DNA of 39,032 bases, taken from assembly GCA_013694625.1 (NCBI GenBank), contig JACDCD010000105.1, positions 1 to 39,032 of the forward strand, read 5' to 3'. Below the pieces are notes generated by a model. The model was not told the DNA's origin, did no database searches, and saw nothing but the letters and a program-made list of their open reading frames with translations. Shown in pieces: positions 22,483 to 29,824 of this stretch (the first letter of the stretch is position 1; every line of letters starts with the position of its first letter). This stretch comes from Actinomycetota bacterium. Its GTDB lineage: Bacteria > Actinomycetota > CADDZG01 > WHSQ01. The position numbers and the translations under genes are program-made.

Positions 22483-22886
22483 CGCTTGACCACCAGGTGA
22501 GTCGTCATTCCTCCGCCCTCACGGGGAATGAAGTCACACTCATCAACCAGGCTGTTCAAGAGCCTCAATGACATCGCCACCCGCGAAGAGAAGCCCTGGC
22601 TGTCGAACAGGTCCTCGGCGGCCGGTTCGGCCGAGTTGTCGCCGCGGTCTTGCACCAGAACGCTCAGCGCCTCTGCATCGGAACTGTACGTGATGGTCAC
22701 CGGCTCTTCAGAGCCCGCCTCTTCGTTTGCCAGGACGGCGTTAGCGCAGGCCTCGGACACGGCCATTTTGAGCTCCTCCACCCCGTCCTCATCCAGTCCA
22801 GAGGTGCGGGCCAGATAGGCGAGCGTGAGCCGGACCACTCCCACGTACGCCGATCGGGGAGGTATCTCGAGCTCGACCGCCGTCAC
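22479..22886 (-). CDS. rsbW: RsbW-like anti-sigma factor / serine kinase (HATPase_c)
   Basis: From GTG 22886 this encodes 135 residues of the GHKL ATPase fold. The N-box region is [18 protein letters not shown], the G1-like motif is [10 protein letters not shown], and a later segment reads [15 protein letters not shown]. Such proteins bind a sigma-B/F-type sigma factor and phosphorylate the STAS antagonist. The start overlaps the stop of the upstream STAS gene by 4 bp (22883-22886), so they are translationally coupled. No sigma-B-like gene is in the window, so the target is unknown. Its TAA stop falls within the end of the MITE-like repeat. Confidence 0.85.
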
Positions 22887-23238: not shown

Positions 23239-24894
23239 CTACTCTCCTTGGGTCTCTCGTGACCGGCGGGTCGATCCTACCGCCCGATCGCCATTGCCCT
23301 CGAGGGATGATCCCGTGAGGCTGACGGCGAAGTCCTCGGGCGAGAGCTCCCGGCCCGTCGCGGATCTAACCAGGTCATCCCAGCGGAGAGACGCGCCGGG
23401 TGCGAAAAGGCGCTCATCGAGCCAGCGGCCTGCGGCCGGCGCGCCGACGAGATGGGCGTCGAGGTCCCGCTCGATCGCCGTCCGCAGCTGGGTCGCGAGC
23501 ATCTCGCCCAAAAGGTAGTTCTGGTAGTAAACCGGGACGGTCGCAATGTGAACCTTCGCCGCCCAATCGGGGGCGCGCCGGTCAGGGGGACGCCGGACGA
23601 GCTGGAAGCGCTCCACCAGCTGCCACCACAACTCGTCGAGATCTGCGGTGGGATCCTGATACAGGGCACGTTCGAAATGAACCATTACAAGCCCCCATCG
23701 AGCGAACAACAGGCTTGCCGCTCTTGTCGTGCGATGCAGTTCCTCTTCGATCTGGGAGATCACACCCGGCTGGATGGCCGCGACGTCGACAAGCCAGCGC
23801 GGATCGCGAGCCAGGCGTCCGGACATAATGGCCATGCCCTCCGTAACGAAGGTGTGGGCGGGCCGGCGCAGCAGATAGGGCAGGGACGGATCGATGCAGG
23901 CGTCATAGGCCGCATGTCCGGATTCGTGCAGCATCACCTCGACCCAGCGCTGCCCGGGCACGATATTGGCGAGAATCCGCACGTCCTCCTTTCGATCCAT
24001 CTGGATGCAGAATGCATGCTGAGACTTGCCTGCTCGCGGGAAGAGATCACTCTGCGCCAATACCCCCGCAAGGTCGATGCCCCAGCGCCTGAAGCTCACC
24101 TCCGCGAGATGCTGCGCTTCGAGTCCGGCAAAGTGTCCGTCCAGGGCCACCCCGCCATTGGACGGCACCGTCTGGAAGAAAGGGTCCGCATAGTGCCAAG
24201 GCTCGAGCTCAGTGGCGCCGAAACGGCTCGCGAGGTGATCGTCCAACGCACTCTTCCAAGTGGTGTAGGGCTCGCGGGTCAACTCCTCGAGAAGGGTCAG
24301 GCGCGCCCACAGCTCCTCCTGCGGAAGCTCCTGAAGGGCCAGCGACATCGAGTAGTAGTCGGAGAATCCCGCAGCATGCGCCGCACTGTTTCGGAGCTCT
24401 GCAAGCTTCATGACGCGTTCGGCGACCACCACACCGATCTCCTTGGAGGCCTCCCACGCCCGGCGCCGCTCGGCCTCGTCGTCGGAGCGTTCCAGCACCT
24501 CTTGGATGTCGTTGTCCGAGACCTCGGTCCCACCGAGCTGCGGCCGATGCGATGCGAAGTCCGATGTGATCGAGTTTGACAGGGCCACGATCTCGGAACG
24601 TAGGTCGTCGTCCATCTGATTGCCGAGAAGGGACTGCCGCAGGACCTCGAGCTGGCGCCTGAGGATACGATCCCGGCCGCCCGCCTCGAGCTCAGCCTCG
24701 ACTTGCGCCAACGCCGCCGGATCACCCTTGGCGCGTCGAAGGCCCAACTCCAGTTCGGCGCTGCGCGCCTCGTTCTCGTGGGTGGCATACGTGGCAGCAT
24801 CCCAATAGGCGCCATGGAAGCGAGTCTCGAGATCTCCGAAGCTCCGCGTAAGACGCTCTACTAGTCCAACGGCGGTTGTGTCGTCCATGTCCAC
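23239..24894 (-). CDS. M2 (ACE-like) family zinc metallopeptidase
   Basis: The 551-residue protein is mostly helical and has the gluzincin motif HESGH (H323, E324, H327). The third ligand lies in TEGMAI (E352). The intervening sequence [17 protein letters not shown] parallels the LPxxLRRxAxxxFHE pattern of angiotensin-converting-enzyme-type M2 peptidases. No signal peptide is visible, so a cytoplasmic oligopeptidase is likely. The start is GTG 24894 or ATG 24888. The upstream tad cluster ends 64 bp away and rsbV follows after 2 bp, so it may belong to the same long transcript. M3-family membership is the main alternative. Confidence 0.75.
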
Positions 24895-24958: not shown

Positions 24959-25624
24959 TCAGCGGTGCGCTGAGATCAGCTCGAAATGCCACGGTTCGTT
25001 CGGCAGCGGCCGGTGGAGCGGCAGGTGCAACCGGTCGATCAACTGAACGGCCAGCGCCATGTCCCCACCGAGGTCGGCCGCCAACCCTCGCTGATGCATC
25101 GAGTCACCCGGACGCGCGACCCAGTCGTCGGCGCGCTCCGGATCTCCGTACTTCTCAAGCGCCTCCTGCCACAACACCGCTTGTCGTTCGGGGCTCCGGT
25201 AGCCGGAGTTGAGCCACACCGACCCGTCGGCAGCCCGCATCAGCCGGTCAAGCGCGTCTTCGAGCAATGGATGCATTCCCCCTGTACCAACTATCGGGGG
25301 GGGCGGCGAGAGGGCGGCCGGATCGAGCACTGCCCGCGCCTCCGCCGTCGCGTCACCGAGAGCGACCCGTACCTGCACGGAGGTCGTGCCCGGCTCGCAC
25401 CAGCACCGGAGCAGCCGGGCGCCGTTGCTCCGTGCGAACCGGCGCGCCACCGTTTCGTGAGACGCCCGGCCGTACGGGCCGGACTCCGCCACAGCCGCCA
25501 GCGCCGCCGCATCCGCGGCCAGTTGGGCGCGCGCCTCGAGCGTCGCTGCCGTGGATAACCGGCCCGCATAGCCGCCGAGGATCAGGGCAAGAGCGAGAGC
25601 GACGCAGCTCACGACAACGCTCAC
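24959..25624 (-). CDS. Rv3654c/TadE-like pseudopilin fused to VanY-type D,D-carboxypeptidase
   Basis: The 221-residue product has two parts. Residues 1-100 start with a single hydrophobic helix followed by ARAQLAADAAALAAVAE, the hallmark of Rv3654c-family TadE-like proteins that close actinobacterial tad clusters. Residues about 112-221 are an M15B (VanY) peptidase: NSGYRSPERQ (139-148), SMHQRGLAADLGG with zinc ligands H177 and D184, and EPWHFEL with H213. Enzymes of this family trim D-Ala-D-Ala in peptidoglycan. The gene overlaps tadE by 4 bp (GTGA, 25621-25624). The fusion implies wall remodelling localised to the pilus machine, which is an inference. Confidence 0.85.
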   Translation of the reverse strand: MSVVVSCVALALALILGGYAGRLSTAATLEARAQLAADAAALAAVAESGPYGRASHETVARRFARSNGARLLRCWCEPGTTSVQVRVALGDATAEARAVLDPAALSPPPPIVGTGGMHPLLEDALDRLMRAADGSVWLNSGYRSPERQAVLWQEALEKYGDPERADDWVARPGDSMHQRGLAADLGGDMALAVQLIDRLHLPLHRPLPNEPWHFELISAHR

Positions 25625-26019
25625 GGAAGTTCGATCCGCATGGTCGCTTCGGCATGAAGTTCAACCGAGCTGAATAGCGCGCCGACCAGTGGAGTCCTGC
25701 CGCCCGGCCGTAGACTTAGGCGGACGGTCAAAGGCTCGCCTGCGCTGCGTGCGGAGCCGGTGGGGGTGACGGCCACCTCGGCGTCCTCGAGCCCGGCGCG
25801 CGCAACGGCGCGCCGGGCCACGTCCGGACCCGGGTCGACAACGGCCGAGCGCGCCGCCTCTCGTGCTGCGTGCCATAGCCGCACCTGGTCACCAACCAGG
25901 AGACCGGTTTCGGTCACGGCCGCAAGAACAAAGGCGATCAACGGCAGGCAGAGAGCGAGCTCGAGGGTCGCCTGCCCGCGCTCGCCGGAAGTGGCTGCGT
26001 AGCGGCGAAGTGGATTCAC
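25621..26019 (-). CDS. tadE: TadE-like pseudopilin
   Basis: The protein, about 132 residues from GTG 26019, has the type IV pilin-like processing site GERGQATLELALCLP, with Glu at position +5 after a Gly, followed by a hydrophobic helix. It then has a soluble domain with HAAREAARSAV, typical of TadE. The start is uncertain because a GGGGAGG immediately precedes this GTG, and a further GTG at 26034 lies in frame inside flp. It is located 7 bp after flp and overlaps the next gene, consistent with one operon. It corresponds in position to Rv3655c. Confidence 0.85.
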   Translation of the reverse strand: MNPLRRYAATSGERGQATLELALCLPLIAFVLAAVTETGLLVGDQVRLWHAAREAARSAVVDPGPDVARRAVARAGLEDAEVAVTPTGSARSAGEPLTVRLSLRPGGRTPLVGALFSSVELHAEATMRIELP

Positions 26020-26026
26020 CCTCCCC

Positions 26027-26206
26027 TCAACCACCGGCGCGTTTGACGAGGCCGGAGACAATCGTCTCGAACATGTCGGCCAGAGCTCCGGACTTCACAA
26101 ACGCTGCAAACACCCCGACGATCAGACCCGCAGCGAGCAACACAAGGGCGTACTCGGCGGTTGTCTGTCCCGCCTGCCCGTACATCAACGACTTGATGCG
26201 CTCCAA
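26027..26206 (-). CDS. flp: Flp-type pilin (DUF4244-like)
   Basis: An AGGAGG five bases before TTG 26206 fixes the start, giving 59 residues rather than the longer open frame. The sequence MERIKSLMYGQAG precedes the predicted prepilin cleavage site, and the mature protein starts QTTAEYALVLLAAG with Glu at +5. A hydrophobic helix and a short amphipathic tail follow. It is the presumed major subunit of the tad pilus and matches Rv3656c in position. No prepilin peptidase gene is visible in the window. A 164-bp gap separates it from the DUF192 gene, so it may also have its own promoter. Confidence 0.88.
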   Translation of the reverse strand: MERIKSLMYGQAGQTTAEYALVLLAAGLIVGVFAAFVKSGALADMFETIVSGLVKRAGG

Positions 26207-26370
26207 GATGACCTCCTTTTCATAACCGGCACAGCGCCGGTAGAAGGTCACCATCTCAATGCAACGCGGCGGTCCTTGTAGTGACCGGTTTCACGTCCAG
26301 CCGAGATGCATACATACCTTGGAGTTTGCCGAAAGCCATACTGGAGCTCTGCCTCTGGATGTTCGGAGCC

Positions 26371-26886
26371 TCAGGTTCTTAGCTCGATCACGTCACCTTC
26401 GGAGACTCCCCATTCCACAAATGCCCCTTGGTTCACTTCTACTGCGCTCGTGTAGGTGACGTTCGGGTAATACACCTTGCACGGTTCCTGCTTGCACGGG
26501 TCCATATCGAGAATACGAAGTACCGTGCCCTGCGAATCGAGGAATGCGATGGAGAGAGGGATCAACGTGTTCTTCATGTAGAACCCACCCGTGCTCTTTG
26601 TCTCGAACAAGAAAACCATGCCGCTCTTTTCCGCCAACGATCTTCGGTGCATGAGCCCGAAAGCGCGCTGTGCGGGTGACTCTGCAATCTCGAGATCGAG
26701 CCGTATCGCCCGTTCGCCTGTTCGGATCACTCCGGTCCCGGTCGAGAAATCGGGAGGTCGCCCCAACGACCTCTTGCGTGACTTCTCTTCGAACCCCGAA
26801 GGTTGACCGCCGCATGCCGTCCCCATGAACAGCATGACTGCCATCCCCAGGCGCAACCATCGCAGAAGGTCGGTACGCATCCTCAT
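26371..26886 (-). CDS. DUF192-domain lipoprotein within tad cluster
   Basis: The 171-residue protein begins with a signal peptide and a lipobox-like GTAC25, suggesting a lipid-anchored protein outside the membrane. Residues about 57-170 match the DUF192 family (RAFGLMHRRSL, GMVFLFE, FYMKNTLIPLSIAFLD, and a closing WGVSEGDVIEL). A small two-cysteine insertion, DMDPCKQEPCKVY, sits in the middle. It starts 21 bp after tadBC and lies before flp, in the same orientation. The function of DUF192 is not established. Its position suggests that it serves the pilus or is simply carried along. Confidence 0.88.
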   Translation of the reverse strand: MRMRTDLLRWLRLGMAVMLFMGTACGGQPSGFEEKSRKRSLGRPPDFSTGTGVIRTGERAIRLDLEIAESPAQRAFGLMHRRSLAEKSGMVFLFETKSTGGFYMKNTLIPLSIAFLDSQGTVLRILDMDPCKQEPCKVYYPNVTYTSAVEVNQGAFVEWGVSEGDVIELRT

Positions 26887-26907: not shown

Positions 26908-27897
26908 TCACGTCAACGTGAGCGTCCGCAGAAAGGGACCCAGGCCCAAGAGCAGGTAGGAGGGCAAGACGCACGTCACGAGCGGGATGACCATTAGCAC
27001 GGGGGCGCGCCTCGTAGCCGCTTCGAACCTGCGGGCCTGCTCCTCGCGCCGGCGAGTAGCGAACGCCCGCAGGGCCACCGAAACGGGAAGCCCGAACTTC
27101 TGGCACATGCGGAGAATCGCGGCCAGCTCTCTGAGCCCGGCGTCGTCGAGCCGGCCGAGAGCCTCCGGCCAGGGAAGGCCGAGGGCAACTAGACGGGTCG
27201 CACGTTGCATGGGAGCGGCGACGCTTTCAGGGGCCTGTCGGCCCGCGATTCGGAGCGCAGCCTGCAAGCTCGTGCCGCCCACGAGCACCGCTGCAGCGAC
27301 GTCGGCCACCGCCGCTGCCCCGTCGTCGGGAGGAGGCAGTGGCATGAGCGCTGACACCCACCTCAATCCCCCGAACGCCAGCGCAACACCGAGTCCCAAG
27401 AGTACAAGCCCGGGGCCATCGAACACCGCAACCTTGGCGAGCGGCATGAGGGGGACAAATGCCAGCGGGAGCCCCGCCACCAGGCGTCCCGACAAGAGGG
27501 CTCCACTTCCCGCGGCGCGTCCTGCCTCGGCAAGTGCAGCTCGGTTCTGGATGCTGGACGCGATGCCTTCGAGCATGCTGGGGGCGTCGCCCCCAGACTC
27601 AGAGACTACGACGAGGACAGCGCTCAATGCCTCGGTATCCCGGCCGAAAAACGGTTGCAGAGGACCCAGGGCTGCATCGTTGGCGGCGCCAAGTCTAATT
27701 CGGCGCGCCATCCCCATCAATGGGTCACGCAGATCCGGCGGGGCGTGCTCGTGCCAGTTGAGCAGAGCCGATCGTAAGGGCAAGCCGCTGCGAAGCAGTG
27801 CAGCCAATCCCCGTACTGCTTCGGCGCGCACACCTGCGCTTACTTCGTCGTTAGCTCTCCGGCACAGCATCCGCCCGAGTGACGGCTTCAGTTGCAT
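26908..27897 (-). CDS. Fused TadB/TadC-like pilus inner-membrane platform protein
   Basis: The 329-residue protein seems to carry two T2SSF-like units in one chain. The N-terminal part has RGLAALLRSGLPLRSALL and VVVSESGGDAPSMLEGI. The C-terminal part has VAAAVLVGGTSLQAALRIAG, LGLPWPEALGRL and RMCQKFGLPVSVAL, then a final membrane pair. Helices lie near about 145-190 and 300-322. Most actinobacterial clusters have separate tadB and tadC genes (Rv3658c, Rv3657c); here only this gene lies between cpaF and flp. It starts inside the cpaF end, overlapping by 10 bp. It would form the membrane platform for pilus assembly. Confidence 0.8.
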   Translation of the reverse strand: MQLKPSLGRMLCRRANDEVSAGVRAEAVRGLAALLRSGLPLRSALLNWHEHAPPDLRDPLMGMARRIRLGAANDAALGPLQPFFGRDTEALSAVLVVVSESGGDAPSMLEGIASSIQNRAALAEAGRAAGSGALLSGRLVAGLPLAFVPLMPLAKVAVFDGPGLVLLGLGVALAFGGLRWVSALMPLPPPDDGAAAVADVAAAVLVGGTSLQAALRIAGRQAPESVAAPMQRATRLVALGLPWPEALGRLDDAGLRELAAILRMCQKFGLPVSVALRAFATRRREEQARRFEAATRRAPVLMVIPLVTCVLPSYLLLGLGPFLRTLTLT

Positions 27898-28931
27898 GGC
27901 ACCGTGAGTACCTCGGCAATGTACCGCTTCCCGGCACTCCGTTCGAGGTGGACGATGAGACCGAAAGCGTCGGTTACCTGACGTCGCAGAGATGTCTCGG
28001 AAGCTCCTGGAGAGGCCTGCAGCGCAAGCGTCGCCATGCGCTCGATTGCATCGGCCGCCGAACGCGCGTGCAGAGTGACCAATGACCCCTCATGTCCCGT
28101 CGACATCGCAGCCAGCGCCGCGACTGCCTCCGAACCCCGGACCTCTCCCACCACTATTCGGTCGGGGCGCATCCGCAATGCCGCCCGGACAAGCGTTGGC
28201 AAGGTCACTTCGCCCTTTCCCTCGAGGTTCACGGTGCGCGCCACCAATGACACGGCCTGGGCACATGATGGAACGAGCTCAGGGGTCTCCTCGATGACTA
28301 CGACTCGCTCCGTAGGTCCGATATGTGCGAGCAGAGCATTGAGCAGCGTCGTCTTTCCCGTCCCGGTTCCACCGCTGATTGCAATGGTGGTGTGGTCCCG
28401 AACCGCGCCGGCAAGCCGCCGGGAACATTCCTCATTCAGCATATGGCGTCGAACGAGATCCTCCATCGAAAAAGGCGCCACGGGAAATCTCCTGATGGTC
28501 ACAAGAGGACCTCCCGGCGCCAGCGGGGGGAGAACCACATGAACCCGCGACCCGTCCGCCAGCCGAGCATCGGCAATAGGTTGTGACGCGTCCGCGCGTC
28601 CACCGGCGCGTGCGAGAAGACGCTCGATGAACGCGCTGAGATGCTCGGCACTCTCCCAACTCACATCGGTCAGTTGCAGCTTCCCCTTTCTCTCAGCCCA
28701 GACGTAGAACGGCCCGTTTACGAGCACATCCGTGACTTCGTCGTCGCGCATCAACTCAGAGAGGGGGCCGTAACCGTCGATCGCATCTGACAACTGGGCA
28801 ACGACCTGCGCGACCTCCTCTGGAGATGTTCGGCCGGCAACAAGGCTTCGCAGAGCGAGACGACGCTGTCCCGCATCAAGTTCGGCGAGTCCTTCATTGG
28901 CGAGAACGAGATCCAACAGCGGTTGATTCAT
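27888..28931 (-). CDS. cpaF: TadA/CpaF-type pilus assembly ATPase
   Basis: The start is taken at ATG 28931, which overlaps the cpaE stop by 4 bp, giving 347 residues. The N-terminal domain is small and helical (IDGYGPLSELMRDDEVTDVLVNG). The RecA-like core contains the P-loop GGTGTGKT (187-194), an Asp box at VVVIEETPEL, Walker B in RIVVGEVRG, and the His box GHEGSLVTLHA. It powers pilus assembly from the cytoplasmic side. The position matches Rv3659c. Confidence 0.94.
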   Translation of the reverse strand: MNQPLLDLVLANEGLAELDAGQRRLALRSLVAGRTSPEEVAQVVAQLSDAIDGYGPLSELMRDDEVTDVLVNGPFYVWAERKGKLQLTDVSWESAEHLSAFIERLLARAGGRADASQPIADARLADGSRVHVVLPPLAPGGPLVTIRRFPVAPFSMEDLVRRHMLNEECSRRLAGAVRDHTTIAISGGTGTGKTTLLNALLAHIGPTERVVVIEETPELVPSCAQAVSLVARTVNLEGKGEVTLPTLVRAALRMRPDRIVVGEVRGSEAVAALAAMSTGHEGSLVTLHARSAADAIERMATLALQASPGASETSLRRQVTDAFGLIVHLERSAGKRYIAEVLTVPCN

Positions 28932-29824
28932 GAGCTCTCGAGAGTGCGCCACAGACGATGGATGCCGTGCTCCCAGCGCGACCAGTGCGCCGCTAGTAGC
29001 CGGTCGTCATCCTCAGCATCACGCAATCTCCGGTCACAGGGCAACTCGAGGGCGACCTTGCGTCCGATGATGCCCTCGATCTCCGCCTTGGACATCTCAC
29101 CACCCGGTCCGATTCGATTCGTGACGATTGCGACGCGCCCACACGTCAGCCTGTCGAGGACTATCCGTGCGCGGCGCGCCGAGGACGCGCTTGGAGCGAG
29201 CACCAGGACGACTGAGTCGGCGGCCCTCAGCAAGTCCGGCGCCCCCAAGGCCCGGCCCACATCAAGGATGATGCGGGCGAAATGAGCGTTTGCCGCCTCG
29301 AGCAGCGCGGGCACGTCGGGCGGCCCGGTCTCTCCTGGACTGGCGAGAACGCGAAACCCCCCCGAGACGGGCAAGGCAGCTTGCAGCAACGACGTCCCGG
29401 ATCTCCCCGCGTCCGCCCACGTCAGGGCGTCCTCCGGCAGTCCGAGGCGGTATCCGGCTCCCCACTCGAGGTCGAAATCCACAAGACAGGTCGGCGCCGA
29501 CCGGGCGGACGCACGCGCAAGGTGAAGGGCGACGCTGGTGACCCCAATCCCGCCGCCAGGGCTCGACACGGCAACGATGCGAGCCTCCCGGGCCCGGCCG
29601 GCCACTCTCATGACATCGTCCAGGACATGGCCCGGCCGGGCAGGGTCGAAGACGACGTCCGCCTCCACATCCATGTCGGCGCCGGCCACCACAATATCCG
29701 CATCCGCCGGTGGCGCATTGTGAAGGGCGACCGTCCAGTTCGACGGCGCCGAGTCGAACGCACGCGCCGCCTGGAGCCTGACGGTGCTGTCCCGGCTCAC
29801 GACCGCCACGTTCAATGCCTTCAC
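28928..29824 (-). CDS. cpaE: CpaE/Ssd-like MinD-type ATPase-fold protein
   Basis: The 298-residue protein has an N-terminal receiver-like segment (about 1-75) and a ParA/MinD-like domain. The nucleotide loop at 87-97 reads SSPGGGIGVTS, lacking the usual lysines of the deviant Walker A, as is common in CpaE proteins. VDFDLEWG and IILDVGRALG correspond to the A' and B motifs. It is the first gene of the tad cluster, in the position of Rv3660c (Ssd), and probably positions the pilus machine. The start is GTG 29824; no strong ribosome binding site is visible. Confidence 0.85.
   Translation of the reverse strand: MKALNVAVVSRDSTVRLQAARAFDSAPSNWTVALHNAPPADADIVVAGADMDVEADVVFDPARPGHVLDDVMRVAGRAREARIVAVSSPGGGIGVTSVALHLARASARSAPTCLVDFDLEWGAGYRLGLPEDALTWADAGRSGTSLLQAALPVSGGFRVLASPGETGPPDVPALLEAANAHFARIILDVGRALGAPDLLRAADSVVLVLAPSASSARRARIVLDRLTCGRVAIVTNRIGPGGEMSKAEIEGIIGRKVALELPCDRRLRDAEDDDRLLAAHWSRWEHGIHRLWRTLESS

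Follow-up and report, generated by a model that had tools for sequence, protein, structure and literature searches.

Background

The way in which type IV filaments get through a thick cell wall is still an open question. Among the widespread modular pilins, two types with a predicted peptidase, S74 and M26, have been listed (PMC8179133), and the minor pilins TadE, TadF and TadG of Tad systems have been proposed to build customised tips (PMC12075869). A free wall hydrolase of S. sanguinis raises the level of extracellular competence pilin, for which its active site is required (PMC13192262). According to a structural study of the Tad system from 2025, neither a peptidoglycan hydrolase nor a lytic transglycosylase had until then been described with this pilus; its authors assume that such an enzyme is borrowed (PMC12307814). 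Our search of the open-access literature (subscription papers lay outside its scope) turned up no description of a wall peptidase joined to a Tad minor pilin.

We analysed such a gene, which bears directly on the question of wall passage, in a stretch of 39,032 nucleotides from an assembly of an Actinomycetota bacterium (GCA_013694625.1, contig JACDCD010000105.1; hereafter the window).

The fusion gene and its tad operon

The gene (24959..25624, minus strand) has a GTG start and encodes an intact ORF of 221 aa, in which a TadF-like (Rv3654c-like) pilin module is joined to an M15/VanY peptidase domain. Pfam and NCBIfam matches to the two halves confirm the fusion that had been proposed in the first-pass annotation. 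The pilin module (residues 1-104; 25313..25624, minus strand) was delimited by AlphaFold2 modelling, hydropathy, alignment and the register of the start, and the M15 domain (residues 119-218; 24971..25270, minus strand) by Pfam and by sequence and fold matches to the PDB. Between them lies a linker (residues 105-118; 25271..25312, minus strand) with low model confidence, which is the fastest-evolving part of the protein.

The Pfam VanY model (PF02557) matched residues 126-195 with E=1.1e-11 (45.1 bits, cut-off 25). TIGR03816, the NCBIfam model of the Rv3654c family, matched residues 4-97 (E=9.8e-8), with a score of 32.2 bits that lies below the curated cut-off of 50.95, whereas an unfused relative from the sister family f2 (59.3) and the fusion from another family, f58 (54.3), pass it. 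The match to Pfam Tad (PF13400) was sub-threshold at 14.4 bits. Judged by these scores, the pilin part is a divergent Rv3654c/TadF-like relative rather than a strict TIGR03816 member.

Structure modelling, which had been suggested as a check, gave a confident pilin-plus-M15 model with AlphaFold2 (19 sequences; mean pLDDT 90.5 for the whole fusion). The predicted pilin module consists of helices at residues 2-48 and 56-66 and strands at 70-75, 82-89 and 92-99, mostly with pLDDT above 89, and is followed by a weak stretch at 106-118 and then by the M15 domain. Hydropathy marks the N-terminal half of the long helix as membrane-spanning. The predicted sequence of a long N-terminal helix and a small beta-sheet head is that of a type IV pilin, and a pilin module, a short linker and a separate functional domain together make up the architecture of a modular pilin. 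A CxC pair in the pilin head (C74, C76; 25400-25405) is invariant in the fusions of the window's order and in f58, is present in the unfused f2 relatives that were read and is absent from the aligned gyrA-linked proteins described below.

The terminal position of the gene in a tad cluster also held. Upstream of it, all on the minus strand, lie genes for a TadZ-like ATPase (28928..29824; weak CbiA/ParA Pfam matches, position and synteny), the TadA ATPase (27888..28952; Pfam T2SSE, E=5.9e-48), a TadB/TadC-type platform protein (26908..27897; Pfam T2SSF), a DUF192 protein with an apparent lipoprotein signal (26371..26886; Pfam DUF192, E=9e-28, lipobox by eye), the Flp major pilin (26027..26254; Pfam DUF4244, G-QTTAEY motif in the translation) and the Rv3655c-like TadE minor pilin (25621..26061; Pfam TadE, E=1.7e-9; NCBIfam NF041390 below cut-off). 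The fusion is encoded directly after tadE, which is the context of the Rv3654c family, and its start overlaps the tadE stop codon within the sequence GTGA. An M2/M3-type peptidase gene (23239-24894) follows the fusion throughout the order. The gene order TadZ-TadA-platform-DUF192-Flp-TadE-fusion-M3 peptidase is kept in the order wherever contigs reach, and synteny extends farther to genes matching the window ORFs at 22883, 22479, 19129 and 16876. All through the order, the DUF192 gene forms part of the tad cluster. This cluster has a single T2SSF platform gene in the window's order and two in the sister family (L071). One A24 (prepilin) peptidase gene was found in the genome.

The active site of the M15 domain

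The zinc ligands named in the first-pass annotation, H177 (25094-25096), D184 (25073-25075) and H213 (24986-24988), are correctly numbered and all present in the alignment; the catalytic general-base glutamate, E210 within EPWH (24995-24997), is present besides (all on the minus strand). Every complete homologue from the window's order keeps these four residues. Foldseek against the PDB matched the domain to VanXYc (3.7e-7), VanYB and LdcB/DacB, and phmmer led to the same families (VanXYc, VanYB, LdcB). The spacing from the Asp to the last His is only 29 residues, which makes the domain compact. It lies at a similar distance from the VanXY, VanY and LdcB types; carboxypeptidase would be the usual label, although sequence does not reveal which bond is cut.

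The window's genome, like most of the order, has no other M15 domain, and searches there for an S11 carboxypeptidase found none. The window's genome does encode an S13 DD-peptidase. We therefore rejected the idea that the fusion is the sole DD-peptidase of this cell, and the separate S13 enzyme makes a special role for the fusion plausible.

Conservation within the order

The conservation search covered the window's family f1, which is the whole order as sampled (16 species, 13 genera). Full-length fusions were found in 15 of the 16 species and 12 of the 13 genera, two of the 15 copies being cut by contig ends; the sixteenth genome (G005, 89% complete) gave no fusion match. Homologues across the order share 48-90% identity. 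Residues C74, C76, S175, H177, G180 and D184 are invariant in their alignment, and E210, P211 and H213 are present wherever the aligned sequence extends that far. Against the 90%-identical congener, dN/dS was lowest in the pilin part (0.07), followed by the M15 domain (about 0.10) and the linker (about 0.29); on this measure both modules are under purifying selection. Family f2, the sister of f1 within the class, closes its tad cluster with an unfused Rv3654c-like protein of 127-132 aa. As read from these genomes, the fusion is a fixed feature of the window's order.

The draft genome from which the window comes is fragmented into 230 contigs, and a frame error unique to this assembly had been named as grounds for dismissing the fusion. 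Set against the uninterrupted fusion in the same operon of 15 separate genomes from 12 genera, the VanY match and the confident model, an assembly error or chance open frame has a negligible probability, and we regard it as refuted by the conservation across these genomes.

A further copy of the M15 fusion operon, assigned to f44 (G279), was set aside. It lies on a 213-kb contig (L057, G279:C11) that carries the whole f1 tad operon with its flanks and is nearly identical to G011; we treated this contig as probably misbinned.

Absence of a prepilin leader

In all 14 homologues from the window's order for which the register was read (14/14), the start codon coincides with the mature +1 position of relatives. 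Among surveyed TadF-like proteins outside the order, 81 have a Gly at -1; the Q of the RAQxAAD motif follows 34 residues later. Position 2 in the fusions of the order is Ser or Thr, and the fusion has no leader ending in Gly before its hydrophobic helix, as a processed pilin would. A start at mature +1 means that the fusions of the order are made at mature length and are not ordinary substrates of the prepilin peptidase. The term pseudopilin, used for this protein in the first-pass annotation, is therefore not borne out in its strict sense. According to their translations, TadE (G-QATLE) and Flp from the same operon keep both the leader Gly and Glu5. TadF-like proteins are without Glu5; the tip pseudopilin GspK likewise lacks it, and by analogy we infer a parallel between the two.

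Wall peptidases on other TadF-like proteins

We surveyed TadF-like matches from a sample of 397 genomes of the phylum and read the ORFs at most of the matches listed. Outside the gyrA-linked set, the surveyed loci comprised 69 genomes without an added domain and 29 with a wall peptidase (16 M15, 11 NlpC/P60 and 2 M23), counts that are not frequencies, as the survey was non-random, with long open frames taken first and the tad context checked in part. Four further genomes encode TadF-like proteins with tails matching no interpretable domain, and no kind of C-terminal domain besides wall peptidases was recognised in the surveyed proteins.

The search for the domain pair across actinobacterial tad clusters, proposed in the first-pass annotation, located M15 fusions in f1 and in f58, which keeps all zinc ligands and the Glu, and other wall peptidases elsewhere. 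An NlpC/P60 domain is attached to the TadF-like protein in 9/9 f24 genomes examined and also in f46 and f72, as the last gene after tadE (L166, L170, L171, L174-L178, L180, L196, L197). M23 domains occupy this place in f38 and f44 (L169 and L183, which follow tadE). These NlpC/P60 and M23 fusions stand directly after tadE, mostly with Flp, platform proteins and TadA in view, and keep the leader Gly. Most of the ten fusions scanned matched PF13400 together with PF00877 or PF01551 above cut-off; exceptions were the M23 fusion L169, without a PF13400 match, and the NlpC/P60 fusion L170, with PF13400 below cut-off. Cys195, His242 and His254 are invariant in the NlpC/P60 set. The model of an NlpC/P60 fusion, which at a mean pLDDT of only 63 is weak, has the same order of helices and sheet.

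Two arrangements differ from a simple fusion. In f4 (L238:332-1907, minus strand) the TadF-like gene is unfused and an M23 gene starts within its last codons, encoding a free protein with an apparent signal peptide (PF01551, E=5e-23). In f16 (L060:4365-5819, minus strand) a protein of 484 aa combines an N-terminus that appears TadF-like by eye with VanY and lytic transglycosylase domains, and the ORF before it appears TadE-like by eye, with no Pfam match.

A second M15 lineage was found in a large other order, where a TadF-like gene lies directly downstream of gyrA. The gyrA gene was present in 27 of the 30 loci checked (L101-L130), and tadE and tadA in none of these 30. In the TadF-like proteins of this set the M15 domain may be intact, degenerate or missing altogether; it was found in 14 genomes from 11 families. 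The catalytic Glu is replaced by Asp in 4/4 aligned sequences, several zinc sites have decayed, and one protein beside gyrA (L129) carries M23 instead of M15. On this comparison the helix-plus-M15 plan also occurs away from the tad cluster, where the enzyme is dispensable, and with no tad genes nearby the helix need not always imply a pilus.

Taken together, the pattern is wider than the first-pass annotation described, as it includes the loss of the leader, the NlpC/P60 and M23 counterparts and the gyrA-side M15 lineage.

Number of origins

Because M15, NlpC/P60 and M23 domains are not related to one another, a minimum of three acquisitions is certain. By sequence relationship, the acquisitions that are certainly separate are only those of NlpC/P60 and M23, which are non-homologous to M15. 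Unfused class-mates of f58 suggest an independent origin for its M15 fusion, but we set this aside because an AU test did not reject a single clade of the f58 and f1 pilin parts (p=0.317) and because the M15 domain of f58 falls together with those of f1 in the tree (93/92). A separate origin of the f1 and gyrA-linked M15 domains is favoured by the best tree, which separates them, but not significantly, as a joint clade was not rejected (AU p=0.209). A secreted-looking protein of 460 aa (L017, G002:C3) has an M15 domain nested within the f1 fusion clade, which indicates that the module has also moved into a different protein.

Function of the fusion

We consider it fairly probable that the protein is a modular TadF-like minor pilin which carries a peptidoglycan peptidase and loosens the wall for exit of the pilus. 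The helix would insert in the membrane with the C-terminus outside, and, with translation from mature +1, no leader would need removal in the window's order. The fusion would then either associate with TadE at the tip, where the Flp pilus is initiated, or remain beside the assembly platform, and from either place the tethered M15 domain would trim or cut stem peptides of the cell's own wall at the passage of the filament, and the local loosening of the mesh would let the pilus exit. Since NlpC/P60 or M23 domains occupy the same slot elsewhere, the conserved job would be the carrying of a wall peptidase rather than one bond specificity, and the presence of non-homologous enzymes in one slot argues strongly, if indirectly, for selection of the protein to remodel the wall locally. 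A broader reading, to which we give even chances, is that the TadF position is a general docking slot to which M15, NlpC/P60 and M23 domains have repeatedly been attached as the wall-opening tool of the pilus. If true, this would supply a wall hydrolase hitherto unreported for Tad systems.

The earlier idea of a wall-opening enzyme on the pilus is thus upheld as to an intact peptidase on a pilin module, in a tad operon and throughout the order, and fails as to a strict pseudopilin. The missing leader leaves incorporation into the filament uncertain in this order. Two further points count against a role in exit, namely that a simple D,D-carboxypeptidase alone would not cut the mesh and that the similar gyrA-side fusion, with no tad genes nearby, often decays. 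The majority of the surveyed TadF-like genes outside the gyrA set, those of the 69 genomes, are without a wall enzyme, so that such an enzyme is no general need.

A rival reading is a generic membrane-tethered wall enzyme, whose helix is a mere anchor, which works off the pilus in general trimming and which stays in the operon by inheritance. Its main argument is the gyrA-linked TadF-like/M15 lineage away from tad genes, to which the lost leader and the status of the domain as the only M15, alongside no S11 carboxypeptidase found, may be added. We nevertheless judge it unlikely, as the operon linkage with the tadE overlap is strict across the order, the pilin head is conserved as well as the helix, with the pilin part showing the lowest dN/dS of the protein, other wall peptidases occupy the same position in tad clusters that retain the leader Gly, and the genome has its S13 DD-peptidase. 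The degenerate sites of many gyrA-linked M15 domains, and the Asp in place of the catalytic Glu in the aligned intact ones, would also fit a non-catalytic domain that binds the wall and fixes the pilus base in peptidoglycan. For the window's protein this is very improbable, because its order and f58 conserve all zinc ligands and the Glu, and the NlpC/P60 domains of other families have invariant Cys and His.

The pilus might instead present the peptidase to the walls of neighbours, as a weapon or feeding tool at its tip comparable to predatory Tad tip proteins. NlpC/P60 and M23 domains are able to lyse walls, which would favour such a use, and Tad pili of Myxococcus detect and kill prey via variable tip complexes (PMC12075869). 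A compact M15 domain with carboxypeptidase kin would be a poor lytic agent, however, the module is conserved order-wide at an identity at which fast-changing weapons would not be expected, and an incidental reading of the operon noticed no immunity gene; we see little chance for a weapon. Our preferred reading, a peptidase that opens the cell's own wall for the pilus, can be tested by means of a single residue, by comparing an active-site allele for extracellular pilin. A peptidase built into a minor-pilin-like gene, with different enzyme classes in the same place, suggests that wall passage may be built in.

Comparison with known systems

The Rv3654c/TadF-like minor pilins (TIGR03816) share with the window's protein the last position after tadE, the pilin helix, the RAQxAAD motif and a small beta head, but end after the pilin head, whereas the window's protein adds the M15 domain and has lost the prepilin leader. 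With the modular pilins PilB and PilC of S. sanguinis (PMC8179133) it has in common a pilin module, a short linker and a functional domain; pilins of the PilB/PilC type start with a class III signal peptide and for the most part carry binding domains, in contrast to the fusion, which is without such a leader. The M15B D,D-/L,D-carboxypeptidases (VanXYc, VanYB, LdcB/DacB) have the same fold, zinc ligands and catalytic Glu, from which the window's M15 domain differs in its compactness (29-residue Asp-His spacing) and its tether to a pilin module. Tad tip complexes (KilL/M/N; TadE/F/G; PMC12075869) likewise contain minor pilins of the TadE/F type, which are proposed to expose variable C-terminal domains at the end of the pilus, but these tips are Gram-negative, and that paper has no wall hydrolase and no peptidoglycan term. 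LytF of S. sanguinis (PMC13192262) is, like the enzyme proposed here, a wall hydrolase promoting pilus exit in a monoderm; it is a free secreted CHAP enzyme acting with a competence pilus, whereas the window's enzyme is fused to a pilin module of a Tad system. Modular pilins and appendage-linked wall enzymes are thus kinds already known, and what is added here is a peptidoglycan peptidase on a Tad minor-pilin-like protein.
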